In this document: positions 48,172-53,034 of the stretch, in pieces | How the letters are laid out: every line of letters starts with the position of its first letter | How positions within the stretch are numbered: the stretch's first letter is position 1 | Assembly: GCA_945888625.1 (NCBI GenBank) | Contig: CAMDAH010000001.1 | Location: 1 to 64,000 of the forward strand | DNA: 64,000 bases | Source of the DNA: Chryseobacterium gleum | GTDB lineage: Bacteria > Bacteroidota > Bacteroidia > Flavobacteriales_D > Crocinitomicaceae | Direction: 5' to 3' | Notes under the pieces: model-generated | Database searches by the model: none | What the model was told of the DNA's origin: nothing | Seen by the model: the letters and a program-made list of their open reading frames with translations, nothing else | Made by a program: the position numbers and the translations under genes

Positions 48172-48800
48172 AGTTAAAACTAAATAACAATTTACTAAAC
48201 TTATTAACTTTCTGCTAGGATTAAAAAAAATAAATGACTGTAAACCAACTCATTGAGTTTTATAGTTATTAACTGAAAAAGAAAATAATTGTTTATTTGT
48301 TCTAATAAGTTCTGAAAAATAAACGCTTGTTTATTGGAAATTAATTACAATCTAAATTGTTTTCTTGATATGCTATTTTTATACCTTGAATTTATGATCG
48401 ATTTTGAAACAGTTAATCCACAATTAATTAATTAACAATCATTTTTATTTTATAACAATTTGAATTACTGTAGCATTGTTTGTTTCGTTGTGGAATCAAT
48501 AGAATAAATAACAATAAAGAGTTTTGAATTGTTACTAAATTGTTAGTGTAACAACATTTGAAATAAAAACTTTTTTAAATGATTTTTTTATGCACATATA
48601 AACAAACCTAATAGTAGTAGTAAATTCTTTTATTTATAAATTATTTATTTATTCTTTATAATTAAATCCATATTTTAAGACTCAGTTTAAAAGAATTATA
48701 TTTGTTGAATGTCTTAAGTAGTGATTAGTTTTGAAGAAAATAGAATTCCTTAAATTTATTAATTGAATAGGAAACATGTTATTTTTGCAGTAAGAAAAGT
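48172..48800. other. AT-rich non-coding gap; candidate replication origin (oriC)
   Basis: Largest non-coding gap in the window, very AT-rich. Contains exact TTATNCACA DnaA-type box (TTATGCACA 48588-48596), near match TAATCCACA (48414-48422), hairpin AATAAAC-GCTT-GTTTATT (48318-48335) and many ATTGTT/AACAAT repeats; parS about 4 kb away. Function is inferred. Confidence 0.45.
48780..48787 (+). promoter_or_regulatory. Bacteroidota -7 box TATTTTTG upstream of the DUF4175 gene
   Basis: Exact TAnnTTTG match ending 13 bp before the ATG at 48801; no good -33 element seen. Confidence 0.4.
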
Positions 48801-51800
48801 ATGGACAATTCATTCGATCGCTTGTTAAACCAAGTTGATGCTTTCATTCGAAAATATTACACAAACGAACTAATAAAAGGTATTATCTTTTTCTTTGGTC
48901 TGTTTTTATTGTCTTATCTTTTTGTTTCTGTTCTTGAATACCTAGGTCGATTTAACTCTTTAATACGGGGTGTTTTTCTTTTTGGATTTATTTTATTTAA
49001 CTTATATGTACTAGTGCGGTACATTATTATTCCATTTGCAAAGTTATATTCTTTTGGTAGTAGAATCAATCGGGTGCAAGCAAGTGAAATTATTGGTTCT
49101 TTTTTTCCGTCGATCTCTGATAGGTTAAAAAACACACTACAATTAAACGATCTATTACTAACGCACGATGGAAATCTGGAATTATTATCTGCCACAATAA
49201 ACCAGCGCTCTGAACAACTGAATACGATTCCTTTTACAGGAGCAATTAAGATTAAGGATAATAAAAAATATTTAAAATTTATTGTTCCTTTACTGTTGGT
49301 TTTATTTGCCTTAATTATTTTTATTCCATCACTTTTAATGCAGGGCACTGAGCGGGTTATTAATTTTAATGAAGAGTTTAAGCCCTTAGCCCCATTCAAT
49401 TTTTTAGTAAATACAAATAAGTTGCTTGTTGAAGAGGGAAACGATGTGGAGGTTATACTAACGCTTAAAGGGTCATTTTTGCCTGACAATGTTTATATTA
49501 ATTGTGTTAATGGCAAATTTATCATGACAAAAAACGCTAAAAATGCATTTAGCGCTATTATTAAAAAGCCCAAGAATTCAGCATCGTTTAGTTTTACAGC
49601 GAATGAATTTGAAAGTCAAATGTTTAATTATAAGGTCTTGGGTAAATCGGTTGTATCTAAACTGGATGCCGCTATATTTTACCCTACCTATTTGGGTAAG
49701 AAAAATATAATTATAAATAACTCTGGTGATTTAACTGTTCCAGAAGGTACAAAAATTGAATGGAGTATATTAACCAAGAATACCAAAAGTACAAGAGTAT
49801 GTTACAATAACGAAAACACCGAATACAACGATAACGGTTTTGTTATTAGTAAAATAATCAAAAACAATGCTTTGTTATCTCTCAATTTAAAAAATCAATA
49901 TTCCCCTAAAATTGATTCAACTAGTATTCACGTTACTGTTATCAAAGATGCCTTTCCGACCATAGTGCTAAGTGAATCAATCGATTCTTTATCAGATGGA
50001 GTACGTTTTTTTCAAGGTAATGTTGGCGACGATTATGGATTAAAATCTTTACGTTTTGTTTATATACTTACTAATTCCAAAGGAGTCAAAAAAAATACGT
50101 TTATTAATGTTAAACCAGTAAATGGAACAAGGGCTTATTTTGATTTTGCAGTAGATTTTCGTAGAGAAAATGTACAGTTGGATGACCGTATTGACTATTA
50201 TTTCATAGTGAGTGATAATGACGGTGTTAATGGAAGTAAAAGCACAATGAGTAATGTAAGTACTTATAAGTTACCGAGTTTAGAACAATTAAATGAACAA
50301 CGCGGTGAGGATCAACAAAAAAATAAAGATGACTTGACTAAACTATTAAAGGAAACTAAAGATTTTCAAAAAAATGTCGATAAACTAAAAAAAGACATTT
50401 TGAATTCAAAGTCAAACGATTGGAATAAAGTAAATAAAGCGACTCAGTTAAAAGAAGATCAAAAAAAATTGGTTGAATCATTAGAAAATCTTAAGTCTGA
50501 AATGAGTCAAAGCACCCAGGAAAAAAATCAACTTTCAGAAATAAATAAGGAAATAACCGACAAACAAGATTTAATAGAAAAGCTACTGGAGGAGTTAATG
50601 GATGATGAATTAAAAAAGTTGTTGGAAGAATTAGAAGAGTTAATGAAGCAAAACAATAAAGAAGAATTAAAGGATAAAATGGAGCAAATAAGCCAATCGG
50701 CTGAGGATATGAAAAAACAATTAGATAGGAGTTTAGAAATGCTCAAAAAGTTGCAGGTTAATGAGAAAATTGATGATACAGAGAAGGAACTAAAAAAATT
50801 AGCTAGTGATCAAGAAGAGTTTAAAAAGCAAGTTGAAGAAAAAAAATTAGGGCAAACTGACGCATTAGATAAACAAGATGTTTTGAATAATAAATTTGAT
50901 AATATTAAAAAAGATTTAGAAGAAATTAAAGAGTTGAATAAGGCCTTAGATAATCCTATTCCATTGACTGAAACCAATTCTTTGGAAAAAAAGATTACTG
51001 AAGATTTAAACGATGCAAAAGAATCTTTAAAGCAAGGTAAAGAAAAGAAAGCGGGTGAAAACCAACAATCCGCAGCCGATGACATGAATGAATTAGCTGA
51101 GCAATTAGATCAAAGCCAACAGGATGCTAATAAACAAGAAGCTGAGGAAGACATGGAGGCCATTCGCAACATATTAGAAAGTTTGATGACACTTAGTTTT
51201 AATCAAGAAACATTGATTTCAAAATTTAAAAAAATTAACCCAACTAATCCCATTTATAAAAAATACGGTCGTTTACAACGCGAAATAGTTACGGACACAG
51301 AAATTGTAAGGGATAGCTTATTAGCCTTAGCTAAACGTCAAGCCAAAATCGCTTCTTTTATCGATAAAGAACTAAATACGATTAAAGATAACCACGAATT
51401 AACCATTAATTCAATTGATGATCACCGAGTTAAAGATTTAGAGAACTACCAACAATTAACAATGACATCGTACAATAATTTAGCTTTGCTATTAAATGAA
51501 GCGCTCCAACAAATGCAATCCGATTTGCAATCTCAACAAAAAGGATCGGGAAGTTGTAGTAAACCAGGAAGTGGAAAACCAAAGCCAGGATCAATGTCTT
51601 CAGGTGATATGAAAGAAATGTTAAAAAAGCAATTAGAAAAGTTAAAAAAAGGAGCTTCTCCAGGGGAGGGTAAAGAAGGGGATAAGCCGGGAAATAAACC
51701 AGGCGAGAAACCAGGCATTGGTATGTCAGGGCTTGGAAACAAAGAAATTGCAAAAATGGCTGCAGAACAAACTGCTATGCGCCAACGATTAGAACAGATG

Positions 51801-52157
51801 AGAAATGAGCTAAATAAAGATGGTAATGGTTTAGGCAATAAACTATCACCACTTATTAAAGAGTTAGAAGAGCAAGAAAAGGCATTAATAAATAATCGTA
51901 CGAATACAGATTTGGTTAAACGTCAGCAGGAAATATTGTCAAGGCTTTTAGAAAGTGAAAAAGCGTTGAGGGAACGAGGTTTTGAAGAGAAACGAGAATC
52001 AAAATCGGGTCAAAACGATATGAATGGTAACAAAATAAGATTTGACGAGTATAACAAATTAAAACTTAACCAAATTGATCTAATACAGACAGTTGATCCA
52101 TCTTTTAATAAGTACTATAAAGATAAGGCGAATCAGTTCTTTAATTTGTTTGAGTAA
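48801..52157 (+). CDS. DUF4175-family membrane protein with long coiled-coil region
   Basis: Two N-terminal TM segments plus a third (YLKFIVPLLLVLFALIIFIPSLL), then long Lys/Glu/Gln-rich heptad region and GKPGEKPG-rich linker. Confidence 0.82.
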   Translation: MDNSFDRLLNQVDAFIRKYYTNELIKGIIFFFGLFLLSYLFVSVLEYLGRFNSLIRGVFLFGFILFNLYVLVRYIIIPFAKLYSFGSRINRVQASEIIGSFFPSISDRLKNTLQLNDLLLTHDGNLELLSATINQRSEQLNTIPFTGAIKIKDNKKYLKFIVPLLLVLFALIIFIPSLLMQGTERVINFNEEFKPLAPFNFLVNTNKLLVEEGNDVEVILTLKGSFLPDNVYINCVNGKFIMTKNAKNAFSAIIKKPKNSASFSFTANEFESQMFNYKVLGKSVVSKLDAAIFYPTYLGKKNIIINNSGDLTVPEGTKIEWSILTKNTKSTRVCYNNENTEYNDNGFVISKIIKNNALLSLNLKNQYSPKIDSTSIHVTVIKDAFPTIVLSESIDSLSDGVRFFQGNVGDDYGLKSLRFVYILTNSKGVKKNTFINVKPVNGTRAYFDFAVDFRRENVQLDDRIDYYFIVSDNDGVNGSKSTMSNVSTYKLPSLEQLNEQRGEDQQKNKDDLTKLLKETKDFQKNVDKLKKDILNSKSNDWNKVNKATQLKEDQKKLVESLENLKSEMSQSTQEKNQLSEINKEITDKQDLIEKLLEELMDDELKKLLEELEELMKQNNKEELKDKMEQISQSAEDMKKQLDRSLEMLKKLQVNEKIDDTEKELKKLASDQEEFKKQVEEKKLGQTDALDKQDVLNNKFDNIKKDLEEIKELNKALDNPIPLTETNSLEKKITEDLNDAKESLKQGKEKKAGENQQSAADDMNELAEQLDQSQQDANKQEAEEDMEAIRNILESLMTLSFNQETLISKFKKINPTNPIYKKYGRLQREIVTDTEIVRDSLLALAKRQAKIASFIDKELNTIKDNHELTINSIDDHRVKDLENYQQLTMTSYNNLALLLNEALQQMQSDLQSQQKGSGSCSKPGSGKPKPGSMSSGDMKEMLKKQLEKLKKGASPGEGKEGDKPGNKPGEKPGIGMSGLGNKEIAKMAAEQTAMRQRLEQMRNELNKDGNGLGNKLSPLIKELEEQEKALINNRTNTDLVKRQQEILSRLLESEKALRERGFEEKRESKSGQNDMNGNKIRFDEYNKLKLNQIDLIQTVDPSFNKYYKDKANQFFNLFE

Positions 52158-52172
52158 ATTATATAACTATTT

Positions 52173-52586
52173 ATGAAAGAGGGATTTATACTTATAAAAT
52201 CATTAAAACTGGCTTCTAACCAGCACGCTATCTTGTCTGCTGAACACTTAATAGACCTTATTTGTGGAGAATATAGTATTAATGAAGATGTCTACGGAAA
52301 TGTTTTAATAAGCGTAACAGAAGCTGTTAATAATGCAGTTTTTCACGGTAATTTAAACGATTCATCCTTATCTTTGGATTTAAGTGTTTATTTATCTGAT
52401 TCAGAAGTTTGTTTTGTTGTTTCCGATCAAGGTACAGGGTTTAACTATGACGAATTGCCAGATCCAACCTCACCCGATAATTTATTAAAGGAAAATGGTA
52501 GAGGTGTTTTCTTAATGCGAAGTTTATGCGATGAACTGGCTTTTGAAAATGCTGGTAGTATCGTTTTACTTTATTTTAATCGATGA
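52173..52586 (+). CDS. ATP-binding protein, RsbW-like HATPase
   Basis: ISVTEAVNNAVFHGNL (N-box), VVSDQGTGFNYDELPDPTSPDNLLKENGRGVFLMRSLCDEL (G-boxes). Confidence 0.92.
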   Translation: MKEGFILIKSLKLASNQHAILSAEHLIDLICGEYSINEDVYGNVLISVTEAVNNAVFHGNLNDSSLSLDLSVYLSDSEVCFVVSDQGTGFNYDELPDPTSPDNLLKENGRGVFLMRSLCDELAFENAGSIVLLYFNR

Positions 52587-53011
52587 TAACTCTTCATTTC
52601 AATTGCGAGGATTGTCCTGTTTTTGACACAGAATTTTTTACCTTAACCTTGCCTAAATTACTCGTTTTAGAGGATAGACAAGAAGGAGACATTGCAATTA
52701 TCTTTACTAGCGACGAAGAATTGCTCTCGATTAATCAAGCGCATCTAAAGCACGATTTTTATACAGACATAATTACATTTGACTATTCTGTAGAGCAGCG
52801 CGTTTGTGGCGATTTGTTTATATCACTCGAGCGTGTCGCAGATAATGCTATAGCGTATGACACCTTGTTTTTCACTGAACTTTGCAGGGTAGTATATCAT
52901 GGAGTGTTACATTTGTGTGGCTACAACGACAAAGATGAAGCAGATAAATTGCTTATGCGTACTAAGGAAGATTTCTATATTGCTCATTTTGTTTCACGTG
53001 AAACAAATTAA
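52583..53011 (+). CDS. ybeY: Endoribonuclease YbeY (rRNA maturation)
   Basis: [47 protein letters not shown] (HGxLHLxGY[D/N]H-like). Confidence 0.94.
52990..53005. promoter_or_regulatory. parS: parS centromere site TGTTTCACGTGAAACA
   Basis: Perfect 16-bp palindrome identical to the bacterial parS consensus, extendable to 20 bp TTTGTTTCACGTGAAACAAA (52988-53007). Lies in the final codons (FVSRET) of ybeY, 30 bp upstream of mnmG. Confidence 0.88.
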
Positions 53012-53034
53012 ATTGTTGTAATGAATATTTTTGG

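Follow-up and report, generated by a model that had tools for sequence, protein, structure and literature searches.

The last codons of ybeY in this genome coincide with a perfect palindrome, raising two linked questions: is the site a chromosomal centromere, and does selection act on the DNA or on the peptide that it encodes? An earlier note on the window (the whole 64,000-nucleotide stretch analysed here) described a perfect 16-bp parS palindrome at 52990-53005, with symmetry extending to 20 bp, that doubles as the final codons of YbeY (F-V-S-R-E-T-N-stop) just upstream of mnmG and has no second full copy in the window. The sequence agrees on each of these points.

The palindrome and its predicted partner proteins

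The palindrome reads TGTTTCACGTGAAACA, without a mismatch to the canonical ParB-binding site, and two additional symmetric bases on each side extend it to TTTGTTTCACGTGAAACAAA. The exact 16-bp TGTTNCACGTGNAACA palindrome that is the defining feature of chromosomal parS is present here. The site and its surroundings comprise the following features:

48172-48800, no strand: AT-rich divergent gap of 629 bp between rpiB (minus strand) and the DUF4175 gene (plus strand); candidate oriC, ~4.2 kb from parS
48801-52157, plus strand: DUF4175 protein, member of a conserved DUF4175-ATPase-ybeY-mnmG run
52173-52586, plus strand: HATPase_c_2 (RsbW-like) ATPase, member of the same run
52583-53011, plus strand: ybeY, rRNA maturation endoribonuclease (Pfam PF02130, E 1.2e-23), whose last seven codons overlap parS
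52988-53007, no strand: full perfect palindrome, 20 bp
52990-53005, no strand: parS, canonical 16-bp ParB-binding palindrome, exact match
53012-53034, no strand: ybeY-mnmG gap, which holds a second parS in close relatives and none recognisable in this genome
53035-54906, plus strand: mnmG (gidA; Pfam PF01134, GIDA, E 9.7e-162), beside which parS stays across Bacteroidota

The ybeY reading frame ends in ...HFVSRETN-stop, with parS read in frame 2 (xxT, GTT, TCA, CGT, GAA, ACA) to give V-S-R-E-T, and the site lies 30 bp from the mnmG start. It is the sole match in the window even at three or fewer mismatches. A scan of the whole assembly (2,416,613 bp, 42 contigs), as the earlier note proposed, recovers exactly one exact parS rather than a scatter of sites. 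The next best three sites have two mismatches, and the background at three mismatches is comparable to that of a reversed-pattern control (23 vs 16 per strand). Under an order-2 Markov model fitted to the window, 9e-4 exact copies are expected in an assembly of this length; this expectation, together with conservation of the site in relatives, rejects a chance palindrome. The window gives no match in Rfam or tRNA scans.

The earlier note asked whether the genome has a parB at all. One ParB is encoded on another contig than parS (contig C6 of this genome, G000; E 2.4e-54), with the Pfam domains ParB_N, HTH_ParB and ParB_C. ParA (L105, 8480-9289; AAA_31, E 1.8e-68) is encoded directly upstream, and parB is followed by dapB and a lepB-like gene, names that are readings of the open reading frames. 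Compared with Caulobacter ParB (6t1f, E 2e-51), the protein keeps K-S-R at 171-173, N178, G201 and R204. R173 and G201 are absolutely conserved in ParB and are replaced by Q and R in Noc (Jalal et al., PMC7383237). Because the equivalents of these residues are kept, the recognition side of this ParB, as predicted from its sequence, fits parS. The palindrome at the end of ybeY is very probably the centromere-like site of a ParABS system, a chromosomal parS with this ParB as its predicted ligand.

Association with mnmG and probable place in the origin domain

Named MnmG relatives place the window among Crocinitomicaceae-like Flavobacteriales. parS is found within one mismatch in 45 of 60 relatives and is kept at the same place in most members of the genus. 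Genus members usually carry two copies, 24-50 bp apart. Nearly all copies fall where ybeY meets mnmG, the first in the ybeY end or just past it and the second in the intergenic gap. Elsewhere in the order and phylum, other families have parS on either side of mnmG. Across a phylum sample, exact TGTTNCACGTGNAACA occurs in 111 of 148 genomes, and some genomes lack any consensus parS. Among the parS sites listed, a non-random subset of that sample, 72 of 75 are no more than 1 kb away from mnmG, as seen in 41 of 44 genomes. The association extends through Crocinitomicaceae, the wider Flavobacteriales and much of Bacteroidota, and it is an association with mnmG; ybeY is the neighbour that parS overlaps.

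A site so close to mnmG might instead be a transcription-factor operator or an mRNA element for that gene, centred on the CACGTG palindrome. Operators are often palindromic, and within the genus 30-45 bp separate the site from mnmG downstream of it. Such a role is nevertheless very improbable: the site is also found downstream of mnmG in other families (for example at dn+1 and dn+158), the whole 16-bp parS is matched including its two wobble positions, and a parS-type ParB is present.

Other arrangements occur among the relatives. Ten loci (L239, L244, L248, L251, L255, L261, L272, L274, L276 and L289) carry a parS-like AGTTTCACGTGG/AAACA directly 3' of mnmG. The mnmG stop codon contains the start of this element (offset -2) and alters the first parS base, making these loci a second case of a gene end fused with parS. 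The class members G121, G129 and G084 have their consensus parS on a different contig or 25 kb from mnmG, a possible centromere relocation. Five loci that form one clade on the MnmG tree (L278, L279, L288, L293 and L294; Spirosomataceae/Flectobacillaceae-like by tree labels) have no recognisable parS near ybeY-mnmG, suggesting that this lineage lost or moved parS.

The nearest relative (L042) has a second parS, TGTTTCACGTGAAACT, in the ybeY-mnmG gap, at +2 after the ybeY stop. In this genome, no position in the gap (53012-53034) comes closer than six mismatches. The intergenic partner present in most relatives is gone here, which leaves the site embedded in ybeY as the only recognisable parS. 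A further copy might lie in a gap of the assembly, which consists of 42 contigs at 98% completeness, and two copies are usual in relatives; the embedded site could then be a real but secondary parS, with the main centromere missing from the assembly. This is very improbable: relatives have their sites clustered at mnmG, a region without a break in this assembly, and no other site in the assembly falls within one mismatch. Should the embedded site truly be the sole parS, this lineage would offer a naturally minimal centromere.

The earlier note also assigned parS to the origin domain. Skew in relatives mostly agrees. In G038 (complete, same order), parS lies at 17.4 kb, and skew is positive to ~1.7 Mb and mostly negative after, with its minimum near 0. 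In G191 (complete, same class), where skew was sampled in stretches, its cumulative value is lowest at 1.50 Mb and parS lies at 1.587 Mb. Noisier support comes from G017, a near-complete member of the same genus with parS at 1.119 Mb of a 2.2-Mb contig, where skew is mostly negative to the left and more often positive to the right. In G152 (complete), skew is ambiguous. The cumulative minimum of the window itself, at 42.1 kb, is ~11 kb from parS; here the contig begins at base 1, the left arm spans only ~42 kb, and the signal is weak.

The replication origin might be the gap between rpiB and the DUF4175 gene (48172-48800), a candidate that rests on AT-richness recurring in the genus and on skew in G017. 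No other part of the genus neighbourhoods compared is as AT-rich as the gap region. A local skew minimum falls at or near it in few neighbourhoods and clearly only in G017 (1,114,596, ~0.1 kb past the gap), and most local minima fall at the left edge of the stretch compared. DnaA-box-like matches (TAATCCACA at 48414, TTATGCACA at 48588) are few and not conserved, and add no support. The dnaA gene is on another contig than parS. A Hi-C study of gut species including Bacteroides caecimuris reports clustered parS sites at the origin and warns that origin and dnaA can lie apart (PMC10197239); the separation seen here fits that warning. parS beside mnmG would serve as an easy sequence landmark for the origin region of fragmented Bacteroidota assemblies, in which dnaA is an unreliable guide.

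The parAB genes do not share this position. In the 24 relatives assembled as a single contig, the distance between parB and mnmG is 0.15-1.0 of a half-chromosome, with a median of 0.57. The centromere thus stays with mnmG and not with parAB.

Three reading frames at the end of ybeY

The overlap with ybeY takes three forms. Frame 2 of parS gives x-V-S-R-E-T (VSRET or VPRET in relatives), frame 1 gives x-F-H-V-K-Q/H (FHVKQ or FHVEQ), and frame 0 gives [C/G/S]FT-stop, whose stop codon comes from parS. The comparison covered 121 loci at which mnmG directly follows ybeY. Of these, 53 show ybeY overlapping parS in frame 2, 14 in frame 1, four in frame 0 and one in two frames; in three of the overlapping loci, the overlap is limited to the stop codon. 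parS is intergenic in 37 loci, lying just past the ybeY stop in some species, and is absent near ybeY in the remaining 12. Frames 1 and 2 both occur inside one genus. On a quick MnmG tree with several open forks, the three frames call for no fewer than 12, 7 and 4 changes, and they have switched repeatedly on this tree.

The palindrome could in principle be a by-product of a conserved C-terminal peptide, VSRET, encoded by a chance choice of codons. parS does lie within the ybeY frame, and among the loci frame 2 is seen more often than any other state. This account is extremely unlikely, and frame switching within one genus refutes it: the DNA stays in place while the peptide shifts frame and identity (FHVKQ, CFT-stop) or is missing, and second parS copies are intergenic. 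The Pfam match also covers YbeY only to residue 134 of 142 and leaves out the parS-encoded tail, and at synonymous sites the base is almost always the one that parS has. The earlier note had considered loss of the palindrome where the VSRET peptide is kept. The opposite is found, as the palindrome persists when the peptide becomes VPRET, FHVKQ or CFT-stop.

Codon choice tells the same story from the side of the peptide. Most variation among the tails falls at the two wobble positions of parS: S or P at the fifth base, and E or G, or K or E, at the twelfth. Among 49 tails of the V-S-R-E-T-, F-H-V-K- or F-T-stop type, taken from loci fetched by MnmG alone, nearly all use the parS codons, and the few that depart from them look like sites 1-2 bases off the consensus. 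From codon usage, the chance of parS codons for a single VSRET tail is 5e-3. The proposal that the palindrome is conserved beyond the need of the protein is upheld by its presence in three frames and at intergenic sites across relatives. Because parS is kept across all frames, the peptides vary mostly at wobble positions and the parS codons are used, the comparison of sequences argues that it is the DNA that is selected and that the YbeY tail is its by-product. As an experiment of nature, the overlap in three frames cleanly shows DNA-level selection within a coding region.

These observations suggest a mechanism. ParB, encoded elsewhere on the chromosome, would bind parS, load CTP and spread over the flanking origin-proximal DNA, including ybeY, mnmG and the DUF4175 side. 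The resulting partition complex would be moved by ParA, giving the site its presumed role in segregation. Because there is little room between ybeY and mnmG, changes around the ybeY stop may repeatedly have let ybeY run into parS, in any frame. Selection on the DNA would then fix which last residues of YbeY are possible and, in frame 0, provide the stop. Across Bacteroidota, the centromere is thus probably tied to mnmG, with parAB having moved away and the ybeY 3' end having repeatedly incorporated parS in three frames, one of which takes its stop from parS, so that a non-coding centromere likely dictates the C-terminus of a conserved protein.

No canonical SMC (TIGR02168, E<=1e-20) is detected in 45 Flavobacteriales (this genome and 44 relatives) among the best candidates scored, at most 12 per genome. 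ParB-parS in these Flavobacteriales may therefore work without the usual condensin partner.

Comparison with known systems

The site resembles parS of the ParABS systems of Bacillus subtilis, Pseudomonas aeruginosa and Caulobacter in its 16-bp consensus with two wobble positions, in its ordinary ParB with R173 and G201 equivalents, and probably in a place in the origin domain, as suggested by skew, mostly in relatives. Unlike in those species, parAB is not beside parS, one copy of parS is present, and parS overlaps the end of a gene, in three frames among relatives. Placement within coding sequence is itself known: nine of the ten PAO1 sites are predicted to be so placed, and one origin-proximal parS suffices in that strain (PMC4368675). 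The binding site of Noc (NBS) is likewise a 16-bp palindrome bound by a member of the ParB family, but it has a different half-site. An identity as Noc/NBS is rejected, as the site is parS and the protein has R and G at 173 and 201, where Noc has Q and R (PMC7383237).

The closest parallels within the phylum come from gut Bacteroidetes. As in B. caecimuris, parS probably marks the origin region, and dnaA can lie away from the origin; two gut Bacteroidetes are also reported in passages of the same study to be without a known condensin (PMC10197239). Those passages make no mention of an association with mnmG, gene overlap or frame switching. A literature search by title and abstract found no published report of a parS-mnmG/gidA arrangement in Bacteroidetes, and none of three-frame capture of the ybeY end was found in a search of incomplete coverage. 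parS in coding sequence and parS at the Bacteroides origin are known already; what is unusual and informative here is the arrangement.
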